From Geodermatophilus obscurus DSM 43160 (lineage in GTDB: Bacteria > Actinomycetota > Actinomycetes > Mycobacteriales > Geodermatophilaceae): a DNA stretch of 64,000 bases. Below the pieces are notes generated by a model that worked only from the letters and a program-made list of their open reading frames with translations, had not been told where the DNA came from and ran no database searches. Position numbers and translations under genes: made by a program. Positions 11,973 through 55,964 of this stretch are shown here, piece by piece; position 1 is the first letter of the stretch; each line of letters starts with the position of its first letter. The DNA is taken from the NCBI RefSeq assembly GCF_000025345.1, contig NC_013757.1, positions 5,084,001-5,148,000 on the forward strand, written 5' to 3'.

Positions 11973-12074
11973 GGCCCCCTGCCCCCGCCTCTCGTGGAAG
12001 GACCCCGTCCTCCCCATCCCTCGCAAGCTCGGGGCGGGACCCTGGACGCGGCCGGCGGGACCCTGCAGGGGGCC
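11973..12074. repeat. Nested palindromic repeat (copy A of the dispersed family inside a second copy)
   Basis: The inner element, 11998-12053, reads AAGGACCCCGTCC, a core TCGCAAGCTC, then GGACGCGGCC. It lies between the two halves of an outer element: left arm GGCCCCCTGC (11973-11982) and right arm GCAGGGGGCC (12065-12074) are exact reverse complements. The outer halves also carry family flanks (CCCCCGCCTCTCG and GGCGGGACCC). This is best explained by one element inserting into the loop of another. It lies between a small orphan gene and the nitronate monooxygenase gene. Confidence 0.8.
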
Positions 12075-12105
12075 GCTCGGGACCGTCAGCGGGCACGATG
12101 GCGGC

Positions 12106-13068
12106 GTGATCCGCACACCGCTGACCCGCACCTTCTCCCTGGCCGCACCGGTCGTCGGGGCACCGATGGCCGGTGTGGCCGGGGGTGCGCTGGCCCGGGC
12201 CGTCTCGCTCGGCGGCGGCCTCGGGATGATCGGCATCGGCAACGCCGCCACGACCGACTTCGTCGCCGAGCAGGCGGCCATCCCCGCGGCCGACGGCCTG
12301 CCGTTCGGCATCGGTCTCATGGCCTGGGCGCTGGCCGAGCGCCCCGACCTGCTCGACGCGGCGATCGCCGCGGGCCCGGCGCTGGTGTCGGTCTCCTTCG
12401 GCGACGCTGCACCCGCCGCCGCGCGGCTGCACGATGCGGGCATCGCCGTCGCCGCGCAGGTGAACACCGCCGACGACGTCCGGCGGGCGCAGGCGGCCGG
12501 GGTGGACCTGCTCGTCGCCCAGGGCACCGAGGCCGGCGGGCACACCGGGCACCGGGCCACCCTGCCGCTGCTGCAGGAGGTGCTGACCCTGGCCGACCGC
12601 CCGGTCCTCGCCGCCGGCGGCATCGCGACCGGGGCAGGCATGGCCGCGGCCCTGGCCGCCGGCGCCGCCGGGGTGTGGATCGGCACGCCGCTGCTCGCCT
12701 GCCCCGAGGGGCTCAACTCCCCCGCCGCCCGGGCCCGCGTCTGTGCGGCCACCGGCGAGGACACCGTGCTAACCCGGGCGTTCGACGTGGCGCAGCGGCT
12801 CGCCTGGCCCGAGCGCTGGCCGGGACGGGCGGTGGCCAACGCCTTCAGCCGTGAGTGGCACGGCCGGGAGGCCGAGCTCGCGGCGGACGCCGAGGCCGCC
12901 CGCAGGGTGCAGGAGGCGCGCCGGACCGGTGACCTCTCCGCGGCGCCGCTCTACGCCGGGGAGTCGGTCGGCCTGGTCACCGCGGAGCGCCCGGCGGCCG
13001 ACGTCGTCCGGGACATGGCGGCCGGTGCCGAGCGAGCGCTACGGGCGGCCTGCGACCTGCTGACCTGA
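12106..13068 (+). CDS. NAD(P)H-dependent flavin oxidoreductase / nitronate monooxygenase family
   Basis: FMN-binding TIM-barrel enzyme of 320 residues. Family marks are the N-terminal PVVGAPMAGVAGGALARAVS, GGLGMIGIG, the substrate-side histidine segment AQGTEAGGHTGHRA, and the FMN phosphate-binding ITTG/TGAGMA region (PVLAAGGIATGAGMAAALA) followed by GVWIGTPLLA. Family members oxidise alkyl nitronates (for example propionate-3-nitronate detoxification) or reduce quinones; which applies here is unclear. GTG 12106 is the only sensible start, with a weak ribosome site, and the nested palindromic element ends about 30 bases upstream. Its 3' end overlaps the convergent DsbA-family gene by 30 bases. 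Confidence 0.88.
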   Translation: MIRTPLTRTFSLAAPVVGAPMAGVAGGALARAVSLGGGLGMIGIGNAATTDFVAEQAAIPAADGLPFGIGLMAWALAERPDLLDAAIAAGPALVSVSFGDAAPAAARLHDAGIAVAAQVNTADDVRRAQAAGVDLLVAQGTEAGGHTGHRATLPLLQEVLTLADRPVLAAGGIATGAGMAAALAAGAAGVWIGTPLLACPEGLNSPAARARVCAATGEDTVLTRAFDVAQRLAWPERWPGRAVANAFSREWHGREAELAADAEAARRVQEARRTGDLSAAPLYAGESVGLVTAERPAADVVRDMAAGAERALRAACDLLT

Positions 13069-13740
13069 CCGCGCGGTGTCGGCCCACGCCCGCTCCAGGA
13101 CCTGCAGCAGCAGGTCGACGGGCTGGGCACCGGCGGCGCCGTACCTGCGGTCGACGACGAAGAAGGGGACGCCGGTCGCCCCGAGCTCCTGGGCGGTGCG
13201 GAGGTCGTCGAGGACCGCCGCGCGGTACCGGTGGTCGGTGAGCGCGGCGCGCACCTCGGCCTCGTCCAGGCCGACCTCCACCGCCAGCGCAGCGAGCGAG
13301 TCGACGTCGAAGACCGAGCGTCCTTCCTCGAAGTGCGCGTGCAGCAGCCGCTCCTTCACCGCGCCCTGGAGCCCGCGCTCCGCGGCGAGGTGGATGAGCT
13401 CGTGGGCCAGCAGCGTGTTGCCGCTGACGCCGCTCGCCAGGTCGTAGTGCAGGCCCTCGCCGGCGGCGGTCTCCTCGACGTGCCGCATCATCCCGCGCAC
13501 GTCCTCGACCGGGCGGCCGAACCTGGCGGCCAACGCGGGGAGGGTCCGGTGGGTCTCGCCCTCGGGGGTGCCGGGGTCGAGCTGGAAGGACCGCCAGACG
13601 ACCTCGACCTCGTCCCGGTGGGGGAACCGCTCCAGCGCGGCCTCCAGCCGGCGCTTGCCGATGTAGCACCACGGACAGACGACGTCGGACCAGACCTCGA
13701 TGCGCACGGACCGCACCAACCCCGTCACCCGCGGGCTCAT
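13039..13740 (-). CDS. DsbA-family oxidoreductase, FrnE-like
   Basis: Thioredoxin-fold protein of about 233 residues with no signal peptide, so cytoplasmic. It opens RIEVWSDVVCPWCYIGKRRLEAAL, with the CPWC redox site and the FrnE-type YIGKRR that follows it, has the inserted helical domain (HELIHLAAERGLQ), and ends with the cis-proline region GATGVPFFVVDRRYGAAGAQP. FrnE proteins are disulfide isomerases of the DsbA2 group; the partner is unknown. ATG 13740 is taken, but GTG 13716 or 13707 would start closer to the domain. The 3' end overlaps the nitronate monooxygenase gene tail to tail. Confidence 0.88.
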   Translation of the reverse strand: MSPRVTGLVRSVRIEVWSDVVCPWCYIGKRRLEAALERFPHRDEVEVVWRSFQLDPGTPEGETHRTLPALAARFGRPVEDVRGMMRHVEETAAGEGLHYDLASGVSGNTLLAHELIHLAAERGLQGAVKERLLHAHFEEGRSVFDVDSLAALAVEVGLDEAEVRAALTDHRYRAAVLDDLRTAQELGATGVPFFVVDRRYGAAGAQPVDLLLQVLERAWADTARSGQQVAGRP

Positions 13741-13926
13741 TCCGGTCGGTGCGCCCCCGACCGCGCCCGGCCGTCCCCAGGGCTGGGGTCGAGGAAGACG
13801 CACCGCACATCCGCGCCGCCGGGGCGTGCGGAGTGGGGACCAGAGGGTCCCCGACGAGCGGCCGGGTGGCTCAGCGCAGGCCGGGGACGCCACCTGGTCG
13901 TGGGGTCGGCCGGGAGGCCGACGGTG

Positions 13927-14304
13927 TCACCGCACGCCGACGAGGTCGACGACGAAGACCAGCGTCGCGCCGGGCTTGATGACCCCGCCGGCGCCACGGT
14001 CGCCGTAGGCCTTGTGCGGCGGGATGGTCAGCCGGCGCCGGCCGCCGACCCGCATCCCCTGCATGCCCTCGTCCCAGCCCTGGATCACCATGCCGACGCC
14101 GAGCCGGAACTCCAGCGGGTCGCCGCGGTCCCAGGAGGCGTCGAACTGCTCTCCGCCGTCGTGGGTGACGCCGACGTAGTGGGCGCTGACCAGGTCACCG
14201 GCCTTCGCCTCGGGACCGTCGCCGACGGTGATGTCCTCGATCACCAGGTCGTCGGGCGCGGGGCCGGTCGGCGGCTCGACGTCGGGGCGGGTGGGCTCGG
14301 CCAT
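13927..14304 (-). CDS. FKBP-type peptidyl-prolyl cis-trans isomerase
   Basis: Single FKBP domain of 125 residues without a signal sequence; it catalyses proline isomerisation in folding proteins. Visible are the characteristic AHYVGVTHDGGEQFDASWDR, MVIQGWDEGMQGM with the active-site tryptophan, RRLTIPPHKAYGDRGAGG and PGATLVFVVDLV. The first 18 residues are Pro-rich and acidic. ATG 14304 follows a GGAG site, which fixes the start. Monocistronic; the next upstream gene is divergent. Confidence 0.95.
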   Translation of the reverse strand: MAEPTRPDVEPPTGPAPDDLVIEDITVGDGPEAKAGDLVSAHYVGVTHDGGEQFDASWDRGDPLEFRLGVGMVIQGWDEGMQGMRVGGRRRLTIPPHKAYGDRGAGGVIKPGATLVFVVDLVGVR

Positions 14305-14402
14305 CGGTTCTCCAGGGGATCGGTGCCGGGTGGGTCCCGACGGTCGGCTCCCATCCAAACAGCGGTTCCCCCGGGTCGCCGGGCGGACTACGGTCCGGCG
14401 GC

Positions 14403-14792
14403 GTGATCGACCACCTGGGGCTGCAGTCCGCCGACGTCCCGGCCGCCGTGGCCTTCTACACCACGGTGTTCGCGCCGGCGGGCCTGCGGGAAGCGATGCG
14501 GTACGAGACGCCGGGTGGCCCCGTGGTGGGGATCTGCGGGCCTGACGGGTTCCCGCAGCTGTGGCTCAGCCCGCTGGCCGAGGGCACCGAGCGGCCGGTG
14601 CACCTGGCGCTGCGGGCGCCGTCGCGGGAGGCGGTGGACGAGGTGTTCGCGCTCGTCCGGGCTCAGGGCGCCGAGGTGCTGCACGAGCCGCGGGTCTGGC
14701 CGGAGTACCACCCCGGCTACTACGGCGTCTTCTTCCGGGACCCCGACGGCAACAACGTCGAGGCGGTCCACCACACGCCACCCGAGGAGTGA
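14403..14792 (+). CDS. VOC-family (glyoxalase-like) protein
   Basis: A 129-residue vicinal oxygen chelate fold protein: MIDHLGLQSADVPAAVAFY start, and the second metal-ligand region YYGVFFRDPDGNNVEAVHH. Histidine near the N-terminus, His in VHLALRAPSR and Glu in NNVEAV could bind a metal as in glyoxalase I or fosfomycin-resistance-like enzymes. The substrate is unknown. GTG 14403 starts right at the conserved strand. Its stop codon abuts that of the convergent SDR gene at 14793 with no bases between. Confidence 0.85.
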   Translation: MIDHLGLQSADVPAAVAFYTTVFAPAGLREAMRYETPGGPVVGICGPDGFPQLWLSPLAEGTERPVHLALRAPSREAVDEVFALVRAQGAEVLHEPRVWPEYHPGYYGVFFRDPDGNNVEAVHHTPPEE

Positions 14793-15542
14793 TCAGCGGC
14801 CGCCGGCGACGTCGAGCAGGCTGCCGGTGCAGTAGCCCGCACCGTCGCCGAGCAGCCACAGCACCGCATCGGCCACCTCCTCCGCGCGACCGGCCCGGCC
14901 CATCGGCACCGTCGGCCCCACCCGCGCGACCCGGTCGGGCTGGCCGCCGCTGGCGTGGATCTCCGTCTCGATGATCCCGGGCCGCACGACGTTGACCCGG
15001 ATCCCCTCCCCGGCCACCTCGCGGGCGAGGCCGACCCCGAGGGTGTCGACGGCGCCCTTGCTGGCCGCGTAGTCGACGTACTCGCCGGGCGATCCGAGCC
15101 TGCTGGCGGCCGAGGAGACCAGCACGATGGACCCGCCCGAGCCGCCGTGCCGGGTGGACATCCGCAGCACCGCCTCCCGGCAGCACAGGACGGTGCCGAG
15201 CACGTTCACGGCCAGCATCCGCTGCACCCGCTCCGCGGTCAGCTCGTCGACCCGCGCCCGCTGTCCCACGATCCCCGCGTTGGCCACCAGCCCGGTCACC
15301 GGACCGAGGCCCTCGGCGGCGGCGGCGAAGGCGGCCAGGACGTCGTCCTCGACCGAGACGTCGGCGCGCACGGCGCACGCGGTCCCGCCGGCGGCCTCGA
15401 TGCCGGTCACGACGGCGGCGGCCGCGGCCTCGTCGTCCCGGTACGTGAGAGCGACCGACCACCCGGCCGCCGCCGCGGCGCGCGCGGTCGCCGCGCCGAT
15501 GCCGCGGCTGCCGCCGGTCACGAGCACCACACCAGGAGGCAC
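14793..15542 (-). CDS. Short-chain dehydrogenase/reductase (SDR)
   Basis: Classical SDR of about 249 residues: nucleotide-binding TGGSRGIG near the start, NAG (LVANAGIV), catalytic Ser in LVSSAASRLGSPGEY, and YAASK with the catalytic Tyr and Lys. The following VVRPGIIETEIHASGG and C-terminal CTGSLLDVAGGR are typical. An arginine-rich stretch after the glycine motif is lacking, so the cofactor is unclear. GTG 15542 is chosen because the Rossmann fold starts five residues later; no strong ribosome site is seen. It is divergent from the alpha-glucosidase. Substrate unknown. Confidence 0.9.
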   Translation of the reverse strand: MPPGVVLVTGGSRGIGAATARAAAAAGWSVALTYRDDEAAAAAVVTGIEAAGGTACAVRADVSVEDDVLAAFAAAAEGLGPVTGLVANAGIVGQRARVDELTAERVQRMLAVNVLGTVLCCREAVLRMSTRHGGSGGSIVLVSSAASRLGSPGEYVDYAASKGAVDTLGVGLAREVAGEGIRVNVVRPGIIETEIHASGGQPDRVARVGPTVPMGRAGRAEEVADAVLWLLGDGAGYCTGSLLDVAGGR

Positions 15543-15600
15543 GGTCGAACCGTAGCGCGGAGCGGGTGCGGGACGCCGCACGCCGTGCTGGGCTGGGCGC

Positions 15601-17316
15601 ATGCCCGCCGATCCCCCGTGGTGGACCCGCGCCGTCGTCTACCAGGTCTACCCGCGCTCGTTCCAGGACTCCGACGGCGACGGGATCGGCGACCTCGGCG
15701 GGATCCTGCAGCGCGTCGACCACCTCGCCGACCTGGGCGTCGACGTCGTCTGGCTCTCACCGATCTACCCCTCGCCGCAGGCCGACAACGGCTACGACAT
15801 CAGCGACTACACCGACGTCGACCCGCTGTTCGGCTCGCTGGCGCAGCTCGACGAGCTGATCACCGCCCTGCACGAGCGTGGGATGAAGCTGGTGATGGAC
15901 CTGGTGGTCAACCACACCAGCGACCAGCACCCGTGGTTCGAGGAGAGCAGGGCGTCGCGGACGTCTCCGAGGCGCGACTGGTACTGGTGGCGGCCGCCGC
16001 GCGCGGGCAGAACGGCCGGGCAGCCCGGCGCCGAGCCGACCAACTGGCACTCGTACTTCTCCGGGCCCACCTGGGAGCTCGACGAGGCCGGCGGCGAGTA
16101 CTACCTGCACCTGTTCGCGCGCGAGCAGCCGGACCTGAACTGGGAGAACCCCGAGGTCCGCCAGGCGGTGTACGCGATGATGCGGAACTGGCTCGACCGC
16201 GGCGTCGACGGCTTCCGCATGGACGTCATCAACATGATCAGCAAGGACGTCGCCCCGGACGGCTCGCTGCGCGACGGGCCCCCGCTGCCTGGCCCGCCCT
16301 ACGGCGACGGGACGGCGTCCTTCCTCTGCGGGCCACGGATCCACGAGTTCCTGCAGGAGATGCACCGCGAGGTCTTCGCCGGGCGGTCCGACCGGCTGCT
16401 GACCGTGGGCGAGATGCCCGGCGTGACCGTGGAGCAGGCGCGGCTGTTCACCGACCCGGCGCGGGCCGAGGTGGACATGGTGTTCCAGTTCGAGCACGTC
16501 GGCCTGGACTTCGACGAGTCCAAGTGGCGCCCGCGGCCGCTGCGGATGCGCGACCTCAAGGCCTCCTTCGGCCGCTGGCAGACGGGGCTGGCCGACGTCG
16601 GCTGGAACTCCCTCTACTGGGACAACCACGACCAGCCGCGCGCCGTCTCGCGCTTCGGCGATGACTCGCCCCGGTACCGCCGCGACTCCGCGACCTGCCT
16701 GGCCACCCTGCTGCACCTGCACCGCGGGACGCCCTACGTCTACCAGGGCGAGGAGCTGGGGATGGCCAACGCCCCGTTCGACAGCATCGACGACTTCCGG
16801 GACGTCGAGTCGCTCAACCACTTCACGCAGGCGGTCGCGCACGGCGAGGACCCGGAGACGGTGCTGGTCGTGCTGCGCCGGATGAGCCGGGACAACGCGC
16901 GCACGCCGGTGCAGTGGGACGCCTCGCCGTCCGCCGGCTTCACCACCGGCACGCCGTGGATCCCGGTCAACCCCGACTCCACCGAGTGGAACGCCGAGGC
17001 CCAGCGCGCCGACCCCACCTCGGTGTTCGCCCACCACAAGCGGCTGATCGCGCTGCGGCACGACGACCCGGTGGTCGCGCTCGGTGACTTCACCATGCTG
17101 CTGCCCGAGCACGACGAGCTGTACGCCTTCACCCGCAGCCTGGACGGCGCGACGCTGCTCGTCGTCTGCAACCTCGGCGCCTCGACGCACCCGCTGGGCG
17201 AGCTGCTGCCCGAGGCCGCCGGGGCCGAGCTGATGCTCGGGAACCTGACCGACGAGGGTGACCCCGCCGTCCTGCGGCCGTGGGAGGCACGGGTGCTGCG
17301 CCCGCGGAGCGCCTGA
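15601..17316 (+). CDS. GH13 alpha-glucosidase (oligo-1,6-glucosidase-like)
   Basis: Cytoplasmic glycoside hydrolase family 13 enzyme of 571 residues that releases glucose from short alpha-glucans or isomalto-type sugars. Visible regions: the DGDGIGDLGGI calcium loop, DLVVNHTSDQHPWF (region I), GFRMDVINM with nucleophile Asp208, TVGEMPG with acid/base Glu271, and WDNHDQPR with Asp344. MSRDNARTPVQWD and the DFRDVES segment are characteristic of the oligo-1,6-glucosidase/alpha-glucosidase subfamily, not alpha-amylases. There is no signal peptide and no extra trehalose synthase domain. A strong hairpin 27 bases after the stop ends the transcript. Confidence 0.93.
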   Translation: MPADPPWWTRAVVYQVYPRSFQDSDGDGIGDLGGILQRVDHLADLGVDVVWLSPIYPSPQADNGYDISDYTDVDPLFGSLAQLDELITALHERGMKLVMDLVVNHTSDQHPWFEESRASRTSPRRDWYWWRPPRAGRTAGQPGAEPTNWHSYFSGPTWELDEAGGEYYLHLFAREQPDLNWENPEVRQAVYAMMRNWLDRGVDGFRMDVINMISKDVAPDGSLRDGPPLPGPPYGDGTASFLCGPRIHEFLQEMHREVFAGRSDRLLTVGEMPGVTVEQARLFTDPARAEVDMVFQFEHVGLDFDESKWRPRPLRMRDLKASFGRWQTGLADVGWNSLYWDNHDQPRAVSRFGDDSPRYRRDSATCLATLLHLHRGTPYVYQGEELGMANAPFDSIDDFRDVESLNHFTQAVAHGEDPETVLVVLRRMSRDNARTPVQWDASPSAGFTTGTPWIPVNPDSTEWNAEAQRADPTSVFAHHKRLIALRHDDPVVALGDFTMLLPEHDELYAFTRSLDGATLLVVCNLGASTHPLGELLPEAAGAELMLGNLTDEGDPAVLRPWEARVLRPRSA

Positions 17317-17342
17317 GGCGGTCGGCACTCCCCTCCCCACGC

Positions 17343-17382
17343 AGCTCCGGCGCTGAGTGCTCCTGCACTCAGCGCCGGAGCT
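17343..17382. terminator. Perfect 18-bp hairpin after the alpha-glucosidase
   Basis: Arms agctccggcgctgagtgc and its exact reverse complement enclose a four-base loop (tcct). No U-tract follows, as is usual for high-GC actinobacterial terminators. It ends the 15601-17316 transcript and may also stop reading from the opposite strand. Confidence 0.85.
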
Positions 17383-17582
17383 ACGGGAGAGACGACCGTG
17401 GTGAGCCTGCCGTGCAGTGCCAGGTGAGGTCCTCGCCCCGTCAGGGAGGCGGAACCGCCAGCGGCCACCTCCTCCCGGAACACGAGTCGGCCGCCCTCCA
17501 CGGCACCGGGCCGGACGACGCCCGGCGATGGGCCGCGACCGGGGCCCTGCCGGCGCTCGTCGACCCCCGCACCGACCTGCGC

Positions 17583-18857
17583 TCAGGCCGGGGCGGCGAC
17601 CGGCTCGGCTACCTCGGGCTCGTCCAGCGGGTGGGCGAGCTCGTCGGCGGGCAGCCGCCACGCCAGGACGGCGACGACGGCGAGCACCGGCGGCACCAGC
17701 CCGGCCAGCAGGAACGTGCCGGTCAGGCCGAGCGACTGGCTGACCGGACCGGCCAGCGCCATCGACAGCGGCATGAACGCCAGCGAGACGAAGAAGTCGA
17801 GGCTCGACACCCGCCCGAGCAGCGCCGGAGGCACCCGCCGCTGCAGCAGCGTCCCCCAGATGACGGTGCCGGCCTCGAACGCCGCCCCGAGCAGCCCGGC
17901 CGCCGCGATCATCACCCACAGCTGCGAGGTCGCGCCGAAGACGACCAGCGGCACGCAGCCGGCGCCCCACAGCAGGTTCATCACCGTGAGGTAGCGGCGC
18001 GGCAGCCGCAGCGAGGCGACGACGGCCGACCCCAGGGCGCCGCCGATGCCGAAGGCGGCCAGCACCCAGGCGTGCTCGGCGGGCCCACCGCCGGCCCGGT
18101 CCCGGACCGCGAAGGGCACCAGGACCTCGAACGGGCCCATGATCAGCAGCACCATCAGCGAGGCGAACAGCAGCGTGGCCAGCAGCCAGGGCGTGCCCAC
18201 CATGTAGGCCACGCCCTCGCGGACGTCGGTCAGCAGCCCCGGGTGCTCGCCCTCGCGGCGGACCGGCAGCGTCGGCAGCGCCGCCACGCACGCGGCCGCG
18301 GCAGCCGAGGTCAGCGCCGTCGCCAGCAGCGCCGCGCCCGGCGAGAGGAGCGCTACCAGCAGGCCGCCGACCGCGGGGCCGGCGGCCATCGCCAGCGCCG
18401 GGCGGACGACGCCCTCCAGGCCGTTGGCCGCGAGCAGCTCGCCGGGCGGGACGACGCCGGGCACCAGCGCCGAGTAGGCCGGGTAGTACAGCCCCGTCGC
18501 GACCCCGCCGGCCAGGGACGCCGCGGCCAGCGGCCCGAGCGCGAGGGCACCGGCCAGCGACAGCAGCGCCACCGACCCGACCGCTGCCGTCTGCAGCAGG
18601 GCGACGCCGAGCAGGATGCGCCGCTGCGGCACCCGGTCGGCCAGCGCGCCGCCGACCAGCGTGCTGGCCAGCATGCCGGCGGCCTGCAGCGAGGTGGCCA
18701 GGGAGAGCGCGCCGGGGCCGCCGCCGAGGTCCACGACCTGCCAGACCAGCGCCACGGTCCACAGGCCCTGCGCGAACAGCGACAGGCCCATGGACGAGGC
18801 CAGCAGGCGGTAGTCCCGGGAGCGCAGGGGCGCGAGCGCGCGCGGCAGGCCGGCCAT
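17583..18857 (-). CDS. MFS exporter (enterobactin/macrolide exporter-like, MFS_3 type)
   Basis: Twelve-segment major facilitator of about 424 residues. The first membrane helix follows a short basic N-terminus (LAPLRSRDYRLLASSMGLS), and motif A reads GGALADRVPQRRI. Layout and the RVPPALLGRVSSLDFFVSLAFMP loop match the EntS/MefA-type exporters, which pump siderophores or macrolides; the true substrate cannot be told. ATG 18857 is chosen because GGAGGGGGAG lies before it; a frame open to ATG 18920 lacks such a site. It stands alone downstream of the truncated acyl-CoA dehydrogenase. Confidence 0.87.
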   Translation of the reverse strand: MAGLPRALAPLRSRDYRLLASSMGLSLFAQGLWTVALVWQVVDLGGGPGALSLATSLQAAGMLASTLVGGALADRVPQRRILLGVALLQTAAVGSVALLSLAGALALGPLAAASLAGGVATGLYYPAYSALVPGVVPPGELLAANGLEGVVRPALAMAAGPAVGGLLVALLSPGAALLATALTSAAAAACVAALPTLPVRREGEHPGLLTDVREGVAYMVGTPWLLATLLFASLMVLLIMGPFEVLVPFAVRDRAGGGPAEHAWVLAAFGIGGALGSAVVASLRLPRRYLTVMNLLWGAGCVPLVVFGATSQLWVMIAAAGLLGAAFEAGTVIWGTLLQRRVPPALLGRVSSLDFFVSLAFMPLSMALAGPVSQSLGLTGTFLLAGLVPPVLAVVAVLAWRLPADELAHPLDEPEVAEPVAAPA

Positions 18858-18995
18858 CTCCCCCTCCGTCGTCGGCGGGCGCGCCGTCGGCGCCCGGACC
18901 CCCATGCTCGCGGAGGACACCGACAGCGGGCACGTGGTTATCGGGAGGAGAGCAAGGACGGTCGGGTGGCCGGCCCGATCCCGCCTCCCGCGGCG

Positions 18996-19307
18996 TCAGG
19001 CGAGGGGCGAGCGAGGGAGCAGGCGGTCGCTGACGGTGCAGTACTCGAAGGCGCCCAGGCCCAGCCCGCCGTGCTCGGCCGGGACGGTGATGCCGAAGTA
19101 CCCGAGCTCGGCCAGCCGGGCCAGCAGGGCCGCCGGGATCAGGCCCTTCTGCGGATCGAGCTCGTTGGCGACCGGCAGCACCTCGTCCATGGCGAAGCGA
19201 CGGGCCTGCAGCTGCAGCGCCTCGCGATCCGGCGTGTGCCAGGGCGGCAGCAGGGCGGGCGGCGGGAGCTCGAGCAGCTCGGTGGGGCGGTCCTGGGTCG
19301 ACGTCAT
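18996..19307 (-). pseudogene. Acyl-CoA dehydrogenase, N-terminal fragment
   Basis: About 103 residues that match only the helical N-terminal domain of acyl-CoA dehydrogenases: ARRFAMDEVLPVANELDPQKG and LAELGYFGITVPAEHGGLGLGAFEYC. A full enzyme has about 380 residues or more, with the flavin-binding middle domain and catalytic Glu. Here the reading frame runs into unrelated codons (SDRLLPRSPLA) and stops, and no continuation is found downstream before the MFS exporter. It is therefore a truncated remnant. Divergent from the DeoR regulator, so a deletion may have removed the rest and other neighbours. Confidence 0.8.
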
Positions 19308-19417
19308 TGTCGTGGGGCCTCTCCTGGGCGGCAGGCGATCTCGGTCCACCCTGCGGCTGGCCGCGGGACGCCGCACGGCACACCGGGGCAGGAGTGACGG
19401 GGCACTCAGCCAACCGA

Positions 19418-19440
19418 CTTCACAAGTACTTCACGTATCT
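19418..19440. promoter_or_regulatory. Direct CTTCAC repeats upstream of the deoR-like gene
   Basis: Two CTTCAC boxes (19418-19423 and 19429-19434) are spaced 11 bases apart, one helical turn, about 30-50 bases before the regulator start and on an AT-rich patch. This would suit an autoregulatory DeoR-type operator or part of a promoter. Short boxes; evidence is positional only. Confidence 0.4.
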
Positions 19441-19466
19441 CACATGTGCCTGGTAGAACTGTCGCC

Positions 19467-21404: not shown

Positions 21405-21425
21405 CCAGCGGGGTGGGTGCGGACA

Positions 21426-32693: not shown

Positions 32694-32808
32694 GGCTCAC
32701 GAGAGGCAGTGACAAGCACCTGGCTGGCTGCCCGGCAACCTCTACTCCGTCTGAGGTGCTCCCAGGGGAAGAGCCGGCCGGACGGCGCCCGCCGCCCGGC
32801 AAGGACGG
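32694..32808 (+). ncRNA. SAM-IV riboswitch upstream of metY-metX
   Basis: The leader matches the SAM-IV class of S-adenosylmethionine riboswitches. P1 is ggctc (32694-32698) pairing with gagcc (32771-32775); the conserved core contains CACGAGAGGCAGTGACAAGC, CCCGGCAACCTCT, and ggtgctcccaggggaa, and the characteristic extra 3' pseudoknot strand cggcaaggacgg lies downstream. SAM-IV elements occur in actinobacteria ahead of methionine genes and switch them off when SAM is plentiful. The gap before it, 32529-32693, should hold the promoter; no further gene was seen there. Confidence 0.9.
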
Positions 32809-32854
32809 AGCTCTCGCGCGCCGCGGGTCCTCCGCGAGGAAGAGGAGACGGCGC

Positions 32855-34147
32855 ATGAGCGACCCGCAGAGCTGGAGCTTCGAGACCCGGCAGATCCACG
32901 CCGGCACCAGCCCCGATCCCACGACCGGCGCCCGCGCCCTGCCGATCTACGCGACGACGGCCTACCAGTTCCGCGACAGCCAGCACGCCGCGGACCTGTT
33001 CGCGCTGGCCGAGATGGGCAACATCTACACGCGCATCATGAACCCGACGCAGGACGCGCTCGAGCAGCGCGTGGCCTCCCTGGAGGGCGGGGTCGCGGCG
33101 CTCGCGGTGGCCAGCGGGCAGTCCGCCACGACGCTGGCGATGCTCAACGTCGCCGAGGCAGGCGACCACGTCGTGGCCTCCGCCTCCCTCTACGGCGGCA
33201 CCTACAACCTGCTGCACCACTCGCTGCCCAAGCTCGGCGTCACCGTCTCCTTCGTCGAGGACCCCGACGACCCGGAGAACTGGCAGTCGCTGGTGCGGGA
33301 CGACACCCGGGCGTTCTTCGGCGAGTCGATCGGCAACCCGAAGGGCGACGTCCTCGACATCGAGACCGTCGCCGGGGTGGCCCACCGCAACGGCGTGCCG
33401 CTGATCGTGGACAACACCATCGCCACGCCGTACCTGATCCGGCCGCTGGAGTCCGGCGCGGACGTCGTCGTCCACTCCGCCACCAAGTACCTCGGCGGGC
33501 ACGGCACGGTCATCGCGGGGGTGATCGTCGACGGCGGGACGTTCGACTGGACCCGCGGCAGGCACCCCATGTTCACCACGGCCGACCCGACGTACCACGG
33601 CGTGGTGTACGCCGACCTGGGTGCGCCGGCGTACGCGCTCAAGGCCCGGGTGCAGCTGCTGCGCGACCTCGGACCGGCCGTCTCGCCGTTCAACGCGTTC
33701 CTCGTCGTGCAGGGCATCGAGACGTTGTCGCTGCGGATGGAGCGGCACGTGCAGAACGCCCAGCGGGTGGCCGAGTTCCTCGAGGCCCGCGACGAGGTGG
33801 ACCGGGTCAACTACCCGGGCCTGCCCTCCTCGCCCTGGCACGCGGCGAAGCAGAAGTACGCGCCCCGCGGCGCCGGCGCGGTGCTCACCTTCGAGCTGCA
33901 CGGCGGTCGCGAGGCCGGCCAGCGGTTCGTCGAGGCCCTGGAGCTGCACAGCCACGTGGCCAACATCGGCGACGTGCGCAGCCTGGTCATCCACCCGGCC
34001 TCGACGACGCACTCGCAGCTGACCCCCGAGGAACAGCTGACCACCGGTGTCACGCCGGGCCTGGTGCGGCTGGCCGTCGGCCTCGAGGGCATCGAGGACA
34101 TCCTCGCCGACCTGGAGTCCGGCTTCCGCGCCGCGAAGGGGGCCTGA
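32855..34147 (+). CDS. metY: O-acetylhomoserine aminocarboxypropyltransferase
   Basis: PLP enzyme of 430 residues that joins O-acetylhomoserine with sulfide to give homocysteine, the direct sulfhydrylation route to methionine. Evidence: [57 protein letters not shown], and the PLP lysine K211 in [11 protein letters not shown]. The C-terminal [15 protein letters not shown] and [10 protein letters not shown]-type ending (here [14 protein letters not shown]) fit the family. ATG 32855 follows gaagaggagacg. It lies directly after a SAM-IV riboswitch and one base before metX. Confidence 0.97.
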
Positions 34148-35264: not shown

Positions 35265-35310
35265 CCGGCCGGGCTTGCGCAACCCGTCGCCCGGTCGCTC
35301 GCCTGGCGTG

Positions 35311-35335
35311 CCCCGAGTTCGCGAAGGGCTCGGGG
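35311..35335. terminator. Hairpin between metX and the gamma-carbonic-anhydrase-like gene
   Basis: ccccgag (35311-35317) and ctcgggg (35329-35335) form a GC stem in the 84-base gap between two converging genes. The loop ttcgcgaaggg and neighbouring ctcgcc/ggcgag arms resemble the core of the dispersed palindromic family, so it is probably a divergent or partial copy acting as a bidirectional terminator. Confidence 0.7.
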
Positions 35336-35348
35336 CGAGGGTCCGCCC

Positions 35349-36019: not shown

Positions 36020-36583
36020 ATGGCCGCCGTGACGCTGCCGACCGACCTGCCGGTGCTGGCCTTCGCCGACCAGGCGGCGCTGGAGGAGTGGCTCGAGGCC
36101 GAGCACGCGACCGCCCCCGGGCTGTACGTGCGGCTGGCGAAGAAGGGGTCCGGCGTCCCCTCGGTGACCCACGCAGAGCTGGTCGAGTCCGCGCTCTGCT
36201 CCGGCTGGATCGACGGGAGGTCGCAGCGGCTGGACGAGACCTCCTACCTGCAGCGGATCACGCCGCGCCGGCCGCGCAGCGTCTGGTCGCAGGAGAACGT
36301 CGCCGCGGTCGAGGCGCTCACCGCCGCCGGCCGGATGCGCCCGGCCGGGTCGGCGCAGGTCGAGGCGGCGCGGGCCGACGGTCGCCGGGAGCGCGCCTAC
36401 GCCGGCCCGGCCACGATGACCGTCCCCGACGACCTCGCCGCCGCGCTGGCCGCCGTCCCTGTCGCGCAGCAGGCCTTCGACGGCCTCGACGGCCGCAACC
36501 GCTACGCCCAGAAGGACCCTCCTGCCCCCCTCCGCTCGCAGGCTCGCGACGGGACCCTGCAGGAGGGCCGCAGACCGTACTGA
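36020..36583 (+). CDS. YdeI/OmpD-associated family protein, C-terminus replaced by a repeat
   Basis: A 187-residue YdeI-like protein: LPVLAFADQAALEEWLEAEH, GLYVRLAKKGSGVPSVTHAELVE, LCSGWIDGRSQRLDETSYLQRITPRRPRSVWSQENVA. The family is small and soluble, with an unknown role, sometimes linked to antimicrobial peptide resistance. After AFDGLDGRNRYA the usual end (a TAKRPETRA-like segment) is missing. The last 22 residues are read entirely from palindromic repeat D (KDPPAPLRSQARDGTLQEG). The gene has thus lost roughly 25 native residues. GTG/ATG start: ATG 36020. Whether the product is functional is uncertain. Confidence 0.8.
   Translation: MAAVTLPTDLPVLAFADQAALEEWLEAEHATAPGLYVRLAKKGSGVPSVTHAELVESALCSGWIDGRSQRLDETSYLQRITPRRPRSVWSQENVAAVEALTAAGRMRPAGSAQVEAARADGRRERAYAGPATMTVPDDLAAALAAVPVAQQAFDGLDGRNRYAQKDPPAPLRSQARDGTLQEGRRPY
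36512..36569. repeat. Dispersed palindromic repeat, copy D (inside the ydeI-like 3' end)
   Basis: A 58-base copy reading aaggaccctcctgc at the left and gcaggagggcc at the right, which pair with each other, around the conserved core tcgcaggctc. Compared with copies B, C and E the arm bases differ on both sides in a matching way. It lies wholly inside the reading frame at 36020-36583. Confidence 0.85.
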
Positions 36584-38117: not shown

Positions 38118-38173
38118 GAGGACCCCGTCCTCCTCACCCCTCGCGAGCTCGGGGCGAGCCTCGGGACGGGGCC
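38118..38173. repeat. Dispersed palindromic repeat, copy B
   Basis: A 56-base copy: aggaccccgtcc, a core tcgcgagctc flanked by cccc and gggg, then ggacggggcc. Outer arms pair for about ten bases. It begins five bases after the stop codon of the minus-strand NlpC/P60 gene and so would fold at the very 3' end of that message, like a terminator. Confidence 0.85.
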
Positions 38174-39871: not shown

Positions 39872-39990
39872 GGACCGGCCCTACCCGGGCAGAGGTGCGG
39901 CAGAACCGCGGCCCGGCCCCGCGAGTGCGGAGCCGGGCCTGGTGACGTACGGGAACGGCCACCTCTCAGGGTTCCGCGCCGAGCCCCGAC

Positions 39991-40048
39991 GGCCCCCGTG
40001 CAGGGTCCCGCCGCGAGCCTGCGAGTGGCGGGGGGCACGGGGGTCCTT
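39991..40048. repeat. Dispersed palindromic repeat, copy E
   Basis: A 58-base copy in the reverse direction: ggcccccgtgc at the left and gcacgggggtcctt at the right pair with each other, around the core gagcctgcga. Arms differ from those of copies B-D but remain complementary. It lies 25 bases downstream of the minus-strand cysteine-rich gene. Confidence 0.85.
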
Positions 40049-40072
40049 CAAGGGGGGAGAGGTGGTCCTGCT

Positions 40073-40375
40073 TCAGCCGGCGAGGGGCTCCGGGGCGTCG
40101 AGGCCGGCGACCACCTGCAGGTCGCGGACGACGGCGCTGAGCTCGTCGGCGGTCCACGGCTCGCAGCAATCGCAGCCGCCCTCGCGGTGGCTGACCAGGC
40201 CGATCAGTCCCTGGGCCTGGTCCTCGGCGATGGCCAGGTTCCCGGCCGACGGATGGCGGTGGCAGGCGCACGCCGAGACGCACAGGCCCAGGCCCCAGCC
40301 GGACACCACGACGGCGTTCCCGTCGTCCCACACCCTGCCGACCTGGAAGACCGACGGCTTCTGAGTCCTCGTCAC
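40073..40375 (-). CDS. Small cysteine/histidine-rich protein, function unknown
   Basis: A 100-residue protein from GTG 40375, fixed by a strong gaggggaggggtccc ribosome site. It has two Cys-rich stretches, LCVSACACHRHPS and EGGCDCCEPW, which together could bind a metal ion or cluster (five cysteines plus two histidines, inference). The flanks are VFQVGRVWDDGNAVVVSGWG and WTADELSAVVRDLQVVAG, which look folded. Not recognised as a named family. It is followed by palindromic repeat E at its 3' end. Standalone. Confidence 0.65.
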   Translation of the reverse strand: MTRTQKPSVFQVGRVWDDGNAVVVSGWGLGLCVSACACHRHPSAGNLAIAEDQAQGLIGLVSHREGGCDCCEPWTADELSAVVRDLQVVAGLDAPEPLAG

Positions 40376-48790: not shown

Positions 48791-49461
48791 GGGAGGTCCA
48801 CACCCCGCTCGGTCCCGCCCGGGTCACCGCCACCGAGCCCGCGGGCACCGTCGTCGGGACGCTGGTCCTCGGCCACGGGGCGGGCGGGGGCACCGGGTCG
48901 GCCGACCTGGTCGCCGTCACCGCCGGCGCCGCCGCCGCGGGCTGGCGGGTGCTCGGCGTCGAGCAGCCCTGGCGGGTGGCCGGGAAGCGCATCGCGCCGG
49001 CGCCGCCCCGGCTGGACGAGGGCTGGACGGCCGTGCTCACCGCGCTGCGGGACGACGGCCGGCTGACCGGCCCGCTGGTGTTCGGCGGCCGCAGCGCGGG
49101 GGCGCGGGTGGCCTGCCGGACGGCGGCCGAACTCGGGGCGGACGGCGTGCTGTGCCTGGCCTTCCCGCTGCACCCACCGAGCCGTCCCGAGCGCAGCCGC
49201 GCCGACGAGCTGACCGCCGTGGCGGTGCCGCTGGGCGTCGTGCAGGGCGAGCGGGACGCGTTCGGCCGCCCGGAGGAGCTCGCCGCGGTGCTGAGCGGGC
49301 AGCACCGCGCCTCGCTCCACGCCGTCCCCGGCGACCACGCGCTGACCCGCAGTCCGGACGTCGTGGCCCTGGCCGCGGTCGACTGGCTGGCCGGGGTCGC
49401 CGGGGCGCGCCCCGGCGACCCCGCGGAGGTCAGCGGCGCCGGCGCCGGACGACCAGCGTGA
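48787..49461 (+). CDS. Alpha/beta hydrolase (KANL3/Tex30 type)
   Basis: A 224-residue alpha/beta hydrolase of the small dienelactone-hydrolase-like group: TLVLGHGAGGGTGSADL (oxyanion loop), the nucleophile elbow FGGRSAGARVACR with Ser, VQGERDAFGRP with Asp, and VPGDHALTRSP with His. The natural substrate is unknown. GTG 48787 overlaps the HAD gene. Its last 32 bases overlap the end of the converging coxG gene. Confidence 0.88.
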   Translation: MREVHTPLGPARVTATEPAGTVVGTLVLGHGAGGGTGSADLVAVTAGAAAAGWRVLGVEQPWRVAGKRIAPAPPRLDEGWTAVLTALRDDGRLTGPLVFGGRSAGARVACRTAAELGADGVLCLAFPLHPPSRPERSRADELTAVAVPLGVVQGERDAFGRPEELAAVLSGQHRASLHAVPGDHALTRSPDVVALAAVDWLAGVAGARPGDPAEVSGAGAGRPA

Positions 49462-50317
49462 CGACCAGCAGCAGCGCCGCGGCACCGGCCAGCGGGGCGG
49501 CGTAGCGGGTCAGCGCGGCCCCGCCGGCGACCTCGAGCAGGTCGATCGGCTCGGGCTCGGCGTGCTTGGGACCTGACGTCCGGGCCGCCGGGGCCGCCGT
49601 CGTGGCCGGCGGCGGCGGGATGACGGCGGCCGGCGTGGTGTCGGCGGCCGCCGAGGCGGCGGCGGTGTCGCCGCCCGACACCCCGTCGGTGGCCGCGGCT
49701 GCGGTCTTCTTCGCCGCCGCCGCGGTCTGGCGGGTCTTCTCCGCGACCGCGTTGTCCCCCGGCACCTGCTCCACGGAGGCCGCGACCTCCTCGACGGCAC
49801 CCGCTGCCTTGGCCGCGGCCTCCTTCGCCGGCGTCGCCGGTGCGGGGGTCGCCGTCGCGGTCGCGCCCGCATCGCCGGCACCCAGCTGGGCGGCGAGCTT
49901 GTCGGCGAACTGGCCGAGCAGCTTGTTGCCGACGTCGGTCATCACACCGCGGCCGAACTGGGCCGGCCGGCCGGTGATGTTCAGGTCGGTCAGGACGTCC
50001 ACCCGCGTGGTGTCGCCCTCGGCCTTGAGCTGGGCGGTGATGAGCGCGGCCGCGGTGCCGTTGCCGCGCTGGTCCTTGCCGCGGCCGTCTATGACCGCCT
50101 TGTGGGCCGCCTCGTCCTTCTCGACGAAGCTGGCCTTGCCCTGGTAGGTCAGGTTGATCGGGCCGAGCTTGACCTTGACCCGGCCGGTGAAGTCGTCACC
50201 GGTGACCGAGTCCAGGGCGGCGCCCGGCATGCACGGCGCGATCCGCTCGATGTCCAGCAGCACCCGCCAGGCTTCGTCGATCGGCACGGGGACGGTGAAC
50301 GAGTTCTCCAACTGCAC
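49430..50317 (-). CDS. coxG: CoxG-like SRPBCC protein with membrane anchor
   Basis: Helper of molybdenum hydroxylases that recruits them to the membrane and may carry electrons or quinone. N-terminal SRPBCC domain, about 1-150: MQLENSFTVPVPIDEAWRVL, DIERIAPCMPGAALD, GRVKVKLGPINLTYQG. Then a disordered Ala/Pro/Thr linker of about 110 residues, and a C-terminal membrane helix (LAGAAALLLVVTLVVRRRRR). GTG 50317 follows aggaggtagc. Downstream of coxM by 98 bases on the same strand, the fourth gene of the cluster; overlaps an opposite-strand gene at the 3' end. Confidence 0.9.
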   Translation of the reverse strand: MQLENSFTVPVPIDEAWRVLLDIERIAPCMPGAALDSVTGDDFTGRVKVKLGPINLTYQGKASFVEKDEAAHKAVIDGRGKDQRGNGTAAALITAQLKAEGDTTRVDVLTDLNITGRPAQFGRGVMTDVGNKLLGQFADKLAAQLGAGDAGATATATPAPATPAKEAAAKAAGAVEEVAASVEQVPGDNAVAEKTRQTAAAAKKTAAAATDGVSGGDTAAASAAADTTPAAVIPPPPATTAAPAARTSGPKHAEPEPIDLLEVAGGAALTRYAAPLAGAAALLLVVTLVVRRRRR

Positions 50318-50415
50318 GGTGCTACCTCCTGGGTTACGGAGCTCGGCCGGTCCGCCCCCGGGTGAGGGCGGGCCGGCCGAGTCGGGTCGAGCGAGTTCCG
50401 AGGGGTGGACCGACG

Positions 50416-51269
50416 CTACAGCCCCGCCGCCGCGGTGACCGCACGACGAGTGAGCACCTGCGCCAGGTGCTCCCGGTAGTCCGCCTGGGCGTTGAGGTCG
50501 CTGGTCGGGGAGGTCCCCTCGGCGGCCGAGCGCGCCGCCGCGGCGATCGTCTCCGGGCTGGCCTCGGCACCGGCCAGCGCGGCCTCGACCGCGCTGGCCC
50601 GCAGCGGCGTGGTGCCCATGTTGGTCAGCCCGATCCGCGCCTCGGCGATGTGCCCGTTCTCCCGGCGGACGACCGCGGCCACCGCCACGATCGACCACGC
50701 CTGCGCCACGCGGTTGAACTTCTCGTAGCGCATCCCCCACTCGCCGGCCAGCTTGGGGACGCGGATCTCGACGAGCAGCTCCCCCTCCTCCAGCGCGGTG
50801 GTGAGGTAATCGAGGAAGAACTCCGCGGCGGGCACCGTCCGCCGCCCCTCGAGGCCGGCGATGACGAACTCCGCGTCCAGGGCCAGCGCCACCGCCGGCA
50901 GGTCGCCGGCGGGGTCGGCGTGGACCAGGGCCCCGCCGAAGGTCCCCCGTGCACGGACCTGCCGGTCGGCCACCGTCTCGGTCGCCTCGGCGATGAGCGG
51001 TGCGTGCTGCAGCACCAGCGGGTCGGTCATGACGTCGTGGTGGGTCGTCATGGCCCCGATGACGAGGGCGTCGCCGTCGTCCCGGACGCCGCGCAGCTCG
51101 GCGACCCGGCTCAGGTCGACCACCGTCTCCGGCGCGGCCAGCCGCAGCCGCATGACCGGGATCAGCGACTGGCCGCCGGCGAGGACCTTGACGTCGTCCC
51201 CACCCTCGGCGATGGCCTGCAGGGCCTCGTCGACGCTGGTGGGGCGGGCGTACTCGAACGCAGCGGGGA

Positions 51270-51273
<4 letters not shown>
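50416..51273 (-). CDS. coxM: FAD-binding subunit of a molybdenum hydroxylase (CoxM-like)
   Basis: A 285-residue medium subunit that passes electrons from the iron-sulfur subunit to the acceptor. FAD-binding marks: FEYARPTSVDEALQAIAEGG, VLAGGQSLIPVMRLRLAAP and the TRGTFGGALVHADPAGDLPAVALALDAEF-type stretch (here RARGTFGGALVHADPAGD). The C-terminal CO_deh_flav_C domain contains YEKFNRVAQAWSIVAVAAVV. GTG 51273 overlaps the coxL stop (GTGA). Confidence 0.94.
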
Positions 51274-53761
<2,488 letters not shown>

Positions 53762-53765
<4 letters not shown>

Positions 53766-54298
53766 TGCTGGGCCGCCACGTGCGGAGCGGCCGCGGTGTC
53801 GACCTCGGCCGGGGAGACGTGCCCGTCACCACTGCCGCGCATCTCGCCGGCGGCCTGCTGCACCGCGCGGACGATGTTCTGGTAGCCGGTGCAGCGACAG
53901 AGGTTGCCCTCGATGCCCTCGCGGACCTCGGTGTCGCTCGGGTCCGGGTTCTCCTTGAGCAGGTCGACCGAGGCCATGATCATCCCCGGCGTGCAGTACC
54001 CGCACTGCAGGCCGTGCATCTCATGGAACGCCTTCTGCATCGGGTGCAGGCCGCCGTTCGGCGCCAGCCCCTCGATGGTCGTCACCTCGCCGCCGTCGGC
54101 CTGGACGGCCAGCACGGTGCAGGACTTCACGGCCGCGCCGTCCAGGTGGACGGTGCACGCGCCGCAGTTGCTGGTGTCGCAGCCGATGACGGTGCCGACC
54201 TTCCCCAGCTGCTCCCTCAGGTAGTGCACCAGCAGCGTCCGGGGTTCGACGTCGTCGGTGTACGTCACCCCGTCGACCCGCACGTTGATCTGGGTCAC
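53762..54298 (-). CDS. coxS: Two-iron two-sulfur subunit of a molybdenum hydroxylase (CoxS-like)
   Basis: A 178-residue small subunit with two [2Fe-2S] clusters. The plant-type site is [14 protein letters not shown] with a later Cys (KSCTVLA); the second site is QCGYCTPGM and [13 protein letters not shown]. First gene of coxS-coxL-coxM-coxG, all coupled or closely spaced. GTG 54298 follows ggaggaaacg. The C-terminal extension of about 15 residues is rich in Ala and His. The 277-base gap upstream holds twin operator-like sites. Confidence 0.95.
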
Positions 54299-54419
54299 CG
54301 TTTCCTCCGCTCCTCTGCAGGGGTCGCGTGTGGCTCCGGACACAGCCGCACCTGCGGCGAGTCTGTCGAGCGGCGCGTGACTTAGGCCACGCTTACCTGG
54401 GGACGGCGCCCCGGCACAG

Positions 54420-54468
54420 TTCCCGCAGCTGCGGACCCTGAGGCCCCTTGTTCCCGCAAGTGCGGACC
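54420..54468. promoter_or_regulatory. Twin palindromic sites upstream of coxS
   Basis: Two near-identical 17-base sites, 54421-54437 (tcccgcagctgcggacc) and 54452-54468 (tcccgcaagtgcggacc). Each has inverted CCGCA/TGCGG halves, and they are 31 bases apart, three helical turns. They lie about 125-170 bases before the coxS start, with an additional AT-rich stretch (tttgacggtttatgc) next to the second site. They look like activator or repressor sites for the cox operon. Confidence 0.75.
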
Positions 54469-54575
54469 TTTGACGGTTTATGCTCCGCGACTACGGCAGC
54501 AGAGCAACGTTGCAATGCTGTTGCAGCGACTCCGGGGACGACCACCACGGGAGAACAGAGGGACCGCCCCGAGCG

Positions 54576-55805
54576 TCACCTGGCCGGCGCAGGGGCCGCC
54601 CGCACCGGGCCGGTCCGCTGCTCGCGGCGGCGCAGCGTCGCCGAGGCGGTGAGCGCGGCGAGTCCGACCGCGGCCAGCGCGGCCCCGACGGTGGCCGGGG
54701 CGGTCCAGCCCAGGCCCGCCGCGATGACCACGCCGCCGAGCCAGGCACCCAGGGCGTTGGCCGCGTTGAGCGCCGAGTGGTTGAGCGCGGCGCCCAGCAT
54801 CTGCGCCTCGCCGGCCACCTCCATCAGCCGCAGCTGCAGGGTCACCACCAGCACCGAGGCGGTCGCCGAGAGCAGGAAGAGGCCGGCCAGCAGCCCCGGC
54901 GCCCAGGAGGCGAGGAGCGACACCAGCGCGAGCAGCACGCCCATCGAGACCATGGCCCCGACCAGCGAGCGGAACAGCGCGAGGTCGGCGAGCCGGCCGC
55001 CGAGCGCCGTCCCCAGGACGCCGCCGACGCCGAAGACCAGCAGCACCCACGGCACGGCACCCCGTGGCAGGCCGGCCTCCTCCGTGGTGAGCGGCGAGAC
55101 ATAGCTGTAGACGGCGAACATGCCGCCGAAGCCGACCGTGCCCACCAGCAGCGTCAGCAGCACCTGCGGACGGCGCAGCGCGGTGAGCTCGGTGGCGATC
55201 GTGACCTCCTGCCGTCCGGGCGACGAGGGCACGAACGCCAGCACCGCTGCCACGGTGGCCACGGCGAGGACGACGACCGCCCAGTAGGCCGCCCGCCAGC
55301 CCAGCGACTGGCCCAGCCAGGTGGCCGCCGGGACACCGGCCAGGTTCGCCACCGCCAGGCCGAGCATCACCGAGCTGACCGCCCGCCCGCGCAGCTCGGC
55401 CCGCACCAGGGACGCCGCCACGAGCGAGGCCACCCCGAAGTAGGCACCGTGCGGGAGGCCGCTGACGAAGCGGGCGAGCAGCAGCGCGGAGTGCCCCGGC
55501 GCCAGCGCGCTGCCCAGGTTGCCGACGAGGAACGCGGCCACCAGGCCGATCAGCAGCCCGCGCCGGGGCAGCCGGGCGCCGAGCGCGGCGAGGACCGGCG
55601 CGCCCACCACCACGCCCAGCGCGTAGGCGGAGATGACGTGCCCGGCAGTGGGGATGTCGACGCCCACGCCCTCGGCGATCTCGGGCAGCACGCCCATCGT
55701 GACGAACTCGGTGGTGCCGATGGCGAAGCCGCCGAGCGCCAGGGCGACGACCGCGGCGACGACCCGCCGGGTGCTGAGCAGGGGGACGTCGAGCGCTGCG
55801 GTCAC
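54576..55805 (-). CDS. MFS exporter (arabinose/chloramphenicol efflux type)
   Basis: Twelve-segment MFS protein of 409 residues resembling the DHA1 group (AraJ, Cmx). Visible: FAIGTTEFVTMGVLPEIAEG, the characteristic start, then GHVISAYALGVVVGAPVLAALGARLPRR and SGLPHGAYFGVASLVAASLV. Substrate unknown. GTG 55805 begins just before helix one. Located on the same strand between the GAF regulator and the cox operon, 97 bases after the regulator gene. Confidence 0.9.
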   Translation of the reverse strand: MTAALDVPLLSTRRVVAAVVALALGGFAIGTTEFVTMGVLPEIAEGVGVDIPTAGHVISAYALGVVVGAPVLAALGARLPRRGLLIGLVAAFLVGNLGSALAPGHSALLLARFVSGLPHGAYFGVASLVAASLVRAELRGRAVSSVMLGLAVANLAGVPAATWLGQSLGWRAAYWAVVVLAVATVAAVLAFVPSSPGRQEVTIATELTALRRPQVLLTLLVGTVGFGGMFAVYSYVSPLTTEEAGLPRGAVPWVLLVFGVGGVLGTALGGRLADLALFRSLVGAMVSMGVLLALVSLLASWAPGLLAGLFLLSATASVLVVTLQLRLMEVAGEAQMLGAALNHSALNAANALGAWLGGVVIAAGLGWTAPATVGAALAAVGLAALTASATLRRREQRTGPVRAAPAPAR

Positions 55806-55865
55806 GTGGTGATGGCAAGGCCGGTGGTCCCGGCCACATTCCCCGCGTCAGGAACGTGCCGGAGC

Positions 55866-55964
55866 GGCCCCGTCCAGAGGCTCGCCGCGAGCCTGCGAGC
55901 GGTCAGACGGCCCCGTCCAGGGCACCGCCCTGAGCCTGCGAAGGGTGGGGAGGACGGGGTCCTT
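55866..55964. repeat. Dispersed palindromic repeats, copies C1 (complete) and C2 (partial)
   Basis: C1, 55909-55964, reads ggccccgtcc at the left and ggacggggtcctt at the right; core gagcctgcga. C2, 55866-55908, is a shorter, similarly directed copy (ggccccgtcc, gagcctgcga) that breaks off where C1 begins. C1 lies inside the last codons of the GAF regulator gene; the stop codon at 55903-55905 is in C2. Confidence 0.85.

Follow-up and report, generated by a model that had tools for sequence, protein, structure and literature searches.

The mycobacterial interspersed repetitive units (MIRU) of mycobacteria insert at overlaps of TGA stop and start codons; they are longer repeats with a reading frame and not nested hairpins. 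Repetitive extragenic palindromes (REPs) provide further comparisons for the element studied here, a dispersed imperfect hairpin in a 64,000-nucleotide stretch of the Geodermatophilus obscurus DSM 43160 genome (NC_013757.1, positions 5,084,001 to 5,148,000; hereafter the window) and beyond it. According to the accessible parts of PMC2817692 and PMC3733652, GTAG-tagged REPs are likewise short, mainly intergenic, multi-copy palindromes with a short unpaired 5′ tag that may supply a stop codon, lie near gene 3′ ends, are occasionally intragenic and are few in divergent spaces (PMC3733652). They measure 20–40 bp, whereas the Geodermatophilus palindrome, at 56–58 nt, falls outside that length and differs further in a tag that is only loosely GTRG, a conserved loop, nested loops and the absence of a Y1 transposase from 108 genomes. 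CGTC-tagged REPs, as far as the accessible text of PMC3733652 goes, are also palindromes without a dedicated known transposase, but they bear another tag and mostly a CCA-like tail, whereas Geodermatophilus copies sometimes end in GTTCCAGnnCnTCACC. E. coli REPs share the placement of a hairpin at most 15 nt from a stop codon (446 of 4,072 predicted REPs, in the accessible part of PMC12306157). None of the actinobacterial terms looked for occurs in the available portion of the 2013 REP survey (PMC3733652), and we found nothing on the palindrome in that of PMC9686282 and no description of it in a literature search that left most subscription papers outside. The palindrome apparently adds an undescribed, high-copy REP-like family for Actinobacteria. 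The family is real, large, covarying and apparently mobile, and departs from REPs in its length and in that no REP-associated tyrosine transposase (RAYT) was found in 108 family genomes. A REP-like, non-autonomous mobile palindrome, mainly of the Geodermatophilaceae, best explains the data and is in our judgement the probable one.

An iterative nhmmer search of the window and 20 evenly spaced 20-kb stretches (464 kb in total) returned 74 palindrome matches. Enlarging the sample to the window plus 60 stretches (1.264 Mb, 24% of the genome) gave 161 matches when partial copies are counted, a density of 127 per Mb that would put roughly 680 copies in the whole genome. A covariance model (R1) of 14 G. 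obscurus copies and one copy from L052 matched this 1.264-Mb sample 152 times (E ≤ 0.001); over the whole genome, with 150 of 16,186 preliminary candidates scored, it has at least 150 matches. The exact pattern CTGANNRAGGACCCNNNNNNCCCC occurs 90 times and the core TCGCNNGCTCGNNNCGGGNCCCT 151 times in the genome, compared with zero for either one read backward. These counts bear out the dispersed family with further copies that a preliminary description of the window had proposed, and its remark that the family is not known from common repeat catalogues agrees with Rfam, which at gathering thresholds finds solely a SAM-IV riboswitch in the window. The family is mainly intergenic: nine of the 161 matches fall within predicted genes, called with a purpose-written codon-usage script and not a standard gene finder, and six lie at stretch edges.

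Copies are mostly 54–59 nt long, with 56 and 58 the commonest lengths. Read on the strand of the upstream gene, a full copy opens with [AG]AGG[AG]CC and continues through the outer arm, a stretch rich in C and the inner arm to the loop TCGCnnGCTC; beyond the loop the inner arm returns, then come GGGnCCCT, the second half of the outer arm and a closing GGCC. About 38 different outer-arm strings occur, with subfamilies that include CCCCGTCC, CCCTCCTGC, CCACCCTTC and CCTCCCTGC. By a loose pattern, the 16-nt tail GTTCCAGnnCnTCACC was found on 26 of 193 full copies from four genomes; 12 of the 26 stand at stop+2 and two look like chance. At the 5′ end, positions −4 to −1 most often hold G, T, G and G (68, 45, 43 and 78%) in 96 copies more than 5 nt from any stop, and G, A, G and G (100, 100, 49 and 61%) in 70 copies at stop+2; base tallies of both ends revealed no CGTC tag.

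The arms covary between copies and pair within them, as had been proposed. In an alignment of 150 rows (148 distinct copies), 94.8% of cells pair and 326 cells are changed on both sides, compared with 97.3 in shuffles, at most 38 with partners slid and 31 one-sided cells; the rows were fitted to a hand-written structure, which favours that structure. In agreement, a gap-free 15-copy alignment, also with a hand-written structure, contains 31 two-sided changes versus 7.5 in shuffles. RNAalifold yields a 9-pair structure on the mixed-length alignment because arm lengths differ among copies. Folding of single copies is less striking since the DNA is 75% GC, with RNA folding z-scores of −2.96 (36512 copy), −2.14 (39991), −1.23 (38118), −0.77 (55909) and −0.10 (11998).

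The left arm starts exactly 2 nt past the stop at 80 of 1,104 sampled stops of called genes. Every other offset from 0 to 23 holds at most 8 copies, and a second, broad rise at 24–31 matches the inner copies of nested pairs; an overlap of the type T-GAGGACC at offset −2 (11 cases) is about as frequent as base composition predicts and was excluded from the counts. TGA is the stop in all 80 cases with a +2 copy (background 87%, p = 3e-5), and C precedes it in 74 of them (background 59%, p = 2.6e-11). The +2 peak recurs in G061 (15 of 356 stops) and G050 (10 of 187), two other genomes of the genus, and a weak one appears in G087 (6 of 364), which is from another genus; taken alone, the TGA and C preferences in these three are mostly not significant. 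With a slightly wider pattern, 86 TGA stops have the arm at +2, and TAG stops have it at 0 (5 cases) or +3 (7 cases). Because the TGA and TAG spacings differ and a G sits 4 nt ahead of the arm in both the TGA +2 and the TAG +3 class, the spacing rule seems to track the DNA letters and not the codon.

The letters alone are not enough, since CTGA outside stops almost never carries the palindrome: in the sampled quarter of the genome the motif follows 77 of 635 CTGA stops versus 3 of 1,096 other intergenic CTGA. The bias persists when the comparison is confined to same-strand sites in spaces of 90 nt or longer (56 of 311 versus 1 of 306), both tandem (36 of 191 versus 0 of 168) and convergent (20 of 120 versus 1 of 138). 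The choice of stop codons is the surprising part of the palindrome's behaviour; such specificity makes it testable how a short repeat finds gene ends, and with 77 of 635 CTGA stops occupied the palindrome may have a large-scale influence on 3′ ends. Among 138 full G. obscurus copies, 47 sit at exactly +2, in contrast to the hairpins of E. coli REPs, and another 16 are offset differently but no more than 4 nt from a stop. A substantial fraction is found away from stops: 34 lie at a distance of 5–60 nt, and for 41 the nearest 60 nt contain no stop on the same strand. Divergent spaces hold 13 of the 161 matches though they make up 50.9 of 190.4 kb, and convergent spaces hold 48 in 36.9 kb.

Nesting and copy swaps, both judged by eye, are frequent: numerous copies sit within another copy's loop, in one orientation or the other, and orthologous sites often exchange whole copies. 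Comparison with G050 (94.8% identity over 181 kb) reveals swapped, nested, partly deleted or absent copies at orthologous sites. Across G050 and three further relatives, 176 stops have at least one ortholog and 33 carry the motif in at least one genome; 20 of these 33 lack it in some genome, a pattern-based count to which a few motifs, such as those at sites 130 and 166, contribute by chance. At site 159, TGA is followed by a native hairpin in G. obscurus, G056 and G040, and a copy lies between the two in G050 and G048. Sites 149 and 176 display a state that looks like loss, with TAG in place of TGA, and at position 115492 of a G. obscurus region a copy replaces about 60 nt of a gene's coding sequence. 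The position at stop codons, the nesting and the filled/empty polymorphism are absent from the preliminary description. A second palindrome, of the type GTGATCATCGGC...CCGATGATCAC, follows gene ends in G. obscurus (site 103) and G040 (site 92); at site 103, G056 and G050 hold the main palindrome in its place.

The preliminary description had suggested a covariance-model search and a comparison with relatives, in which dozens of copies would count as support. That number was exceeded, and R1 matches 101 of 112 family genomes in 9 of 12 genera, where counts outside Geodermatophilus may be underestimates because the model was built almost wholly from G. obscurus copies. Two complete relatives, G001 and G029, contain neither an R1 match nor CTGANNRAGGACCCNNNNNNCCCC, compared with the 90 occurrences in G. 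obscurus; standing beside match-rich relatives, they offer a way to look for an enzyme. Copies are few in G007, G017 and G075. Eight of 80 named TldD loci match, namely L051–L053, L056 and L071 (Geodermatophilus), L054 and L068 (Blastococcus) and L060 (unplaced Geodermatophilaceae), and no match was found in the TldD pieces (at most 21.5 kb) of six Klenkia loci, one Modestobacter, four further Blastococcus and G. tzadiensis. In the Klenkia loci L057, L065 and L069 a different long palindrome (GTTGATCAGGG...CCCTGATC-like) lies 3′ of the ortholog of gene 49430, with no main element seen.

At class level, R1 matches only G. obscurus and two genomes of one other genus among 296, and the core pattern occurs in 4 of 394 genomes (G. 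obscurus, G023, G113 and G392). G392, from a genus of another family, has the same core with unrelated arms; in two of its six pieces that were read (L253 and L255) the arm begins 2 nt after TAG or TAA, which we take for a putative stop. Part of one G392 piece matches an Arthrobacter plasmid, and our guess is that its genus is near Arthrobacter. Carriage by phages or plasmids was rejected: the 36512 copy has no match in either, and the one viral contig that matches the core pattern lacks visible hairpin arms.

Differences between nearest copies bear on whether pairing is maintained as RNA. At a distance of at most 3, 17 changes are one-sided (2 to G.T, 7 to A.C and 8 other) and one is two-sided; at distances of 4–6, 42 are one-sided and 22 two-sided with both pairs Watson–Crick. 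A.C exceeds G.T by 63 to 31 between nearest copies at all distances. For 165 distinct copies drawn from four genomes the figures are 18 to 10 in the outer arms (p = 0.19); 101 of these copies have A.C at one particular position of the inner helix, whose remaining positions contain 58 A.C and 20 G.T. The copies are related, and these counts are therefore not of independent events. One-sided changes in outer arms, inner helix and nearest copies give no sign of a preference for G.U on the mRNA strand; the pair in excess, A.C, equals G.T on the opposite strand. Because most differences between the closest copies affect one side and break a pair, with G.U not preferred, pairing seems to be kept during spread and not as RNA in place; self-complementarity seems important to spreading copies and seems to erode once they are settled. 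The preliminary description had left it between selection for pairing and copying of the arms as a unit; swaps and one-sided changes lean to the latter, with the qualification that self-complementarity seems to count in spreading.

Several results argue for mobility: the copy number and spread together with the empty genomes G001 and G029, the nesting, the clean insertion at site 159, the differing inner copies within one outer copy, the copy in coding sequence at 115492, the scarcity in divergent spaces and the pair-breaking changes between closest copies. The mobile unit would comprise a short 5′ tag (about G-W-R-G), a 56–58 nt imperfect hairpin and sometimes the 16-nt tail, the hairpin combining free but self-complementary arms with a fixed core (TCGCnnGCTC loop and GGGnCCCT). 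It would insert as DNA beside gene ends, mostly 2 nt past a CTGA stop, and also into loops of copies already present. Copy swaps, and deletions running from one repeated 5′ arm to another, would then change the occupant while the junction stays. Beyond the observed family, copy number, pairing, position, nesting and filled and empty alleles, an enzyme may transpose the element via a single-stranded hairpin, and pairing would be kept because spreading needs it.

A number of points weigh against this mobile element. The RAYT/IS200 domain Y1_Tnp (PF01797) was not found in G. obscurus, nor in any of 108 family genomes in a search whose control matched in 5 of 14. The IS91-type Y2 domain PF04986 was found in 0 of 61, where the control was equally silent and the result is uninformative. 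The IS110 domain PF02371 is present in G. obscurus and four others of nine genomes and absent from G050, G061, G017 and G075; IS110 is not required in G050 and G061, which are rich in the element, and was rejected as the mobiliser. No target-site duplication, a mark of miniature elements (MITEs) of DDE transposons, was noticed at filled and empty sites. Some empty alleles are probably deletions, so that insertion polarity is clear at few sites, and simple insertion leaves the bias for CTGA stops over other CTGA unexplained. Paired columns also differ less than unpaired ones between close copies, which may reflect some constraint in place, a contrast that is not decisive because unpaired columns include variable loop bases and gaps. 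As a tentative possibility, insertion may be directed to gene 3′ ends and recognise CTGA/TAG as a working stop but ignore these letters in other places, with target choice coupled to the end of transcription or translation, through an enzyme unlike known REP transposases for which the element's own loops are a second target.

Terminators or 3′-end stabilisers, kept in place as RNA just past the mRNA stop, would account for the gene orientation, the +2 spacing, the enrichment in convergent over divergent spaces and the folding of copies as hairpins. We nevertheless consider them unlikely: no T-run follows (T is commonest at 0 of 45 positions after 70 stop+2 copies), the native hairpin at site 159 follows directly in filled and empty alleles alike, one-sided changes lack a G.T excess on the gene strand, and other perfect 9-bp downstream hairpins are not clearly fewer at stops with a +2 copy (3 of 40) than at those without any copy (43 of 275). 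Translational control, in which a hairpin no further than 15 nt from the stop would halt the ribosome at termination, as for E. coli REPs, with +2 fixed by selection, is also unlikely given the different spacings at TGA and TAG and the patchy presence between close species, even though +2 lies within the 15-nt range given in the accessible part of PMC12306157 and the peak appears in three genomes of the genus as well as, on a small number of copies, in a single genome from another genus. SECIS-like recoding, suggested by a hairpin after UGA, is unlikely for hundreds of genes.

Replication itself might also distribute copies, if template switching on fold-back structures matched the arms to each other and moved copies among existing sites with no transposase. 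Whole-copy swaps at fixed junctions, half copies explicable by 5′-arm recombination (both by eye) and the predominance of two-sided changes are consistent with such copying; it appears doubtful, as it leaves copies at seemingly ancestrally empty sites or in coding sequence unexplained, and mismatches of the closest copies persist uncorrected. Copies that are not near stops bear a tag similar to GTAG/GTGG, tags of the REP list in the accessible part of PMC2817692, so that the palindrome could be a GTAG REP family mobilised by a RAYT since lost or too diverged. The lack of PF01797 matches across the family, with a control that does match, makes this improbable.

All five full copies that the preliminary description had listed in the window lie where it had placed them (Table 1). 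Their outer arms pair within each copy without mismatch in four cases, and the 11998 copy has one mismatch (GGACCCCGTCC with GGACGCGGCC). The segment 11960–12090 has 42 matches in the genome, of which 30 (itself included) cover at least its positions 18–111; G050 has just an inner-like copy at the 11972–12074 site. An OmdA/YdeI-like gene (36020–36583) runs in frame through the 36512 copy close to its 3′ end, where the copy replaces the C-terminal codons of relatives. The 38118 copy, in reverse orientation just past the stop of an NlpC/P60 gene (38178–39116, minus strand), is shared with L051 and G050. At 39957–40070 the relatives vary between another inner copy, a simple copy and no copy at all. 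G. obscurus and L051 hold different inner copies within one orthologous outer copy. The stop of gene 40073 falls at the identical codon in filled and empty relatives and is therefore native. The half copy at 55868–55909 is as expected if an outer 5′ arm was lost.

Table 1. Palindromic copies and nested pairs in the window.
Feature	Position	Strand	Details
Nested pair	11972–12074	+	Outer arms GGGCCCCCTGC (11972–11982) and matching 3′ arm ending at 12074 flank the 11998–12053 copy; begins after TAG stop 11964–11966, spacing +3
Palindromic copy	11998–12053	+	CCCCGTCC arms, one mismatch; inner member of nested pair
Palindromic copy	36512–36569	+	Arms CCCTCCTGC/GCAGGAGGG
Palindromic copy	38118–38173	+	CCCCGTCC arms
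Nested pair	39957–40070	-	Outer arms begin 2 nt past TGA of gene 40073–40375 (-) and enclose 39991–40048
Palindromic copy	39991–40048	-	Arms CCCCCGTGC/GCACGGGGG; inner member of nested pair
Half copy	55868–55909	-	Loop and 3′ arm alone; directly downstream of the 55909–55964 copy
Palindromic copy	55909–55964	-	CCCCGTCC arms; overlaps 3′ end of predicted GAF-domain gene 55903–57306 (-)

A degenerate-looking copy lies between convergent genes at window positions 35265–35348; the same place holds a nested copy in L071 and a short remnant in L051. The SAM-IV riboswitch aptamer occupies window positions 32695–32811 on the plus strand, upstream of gene 32855–34147.

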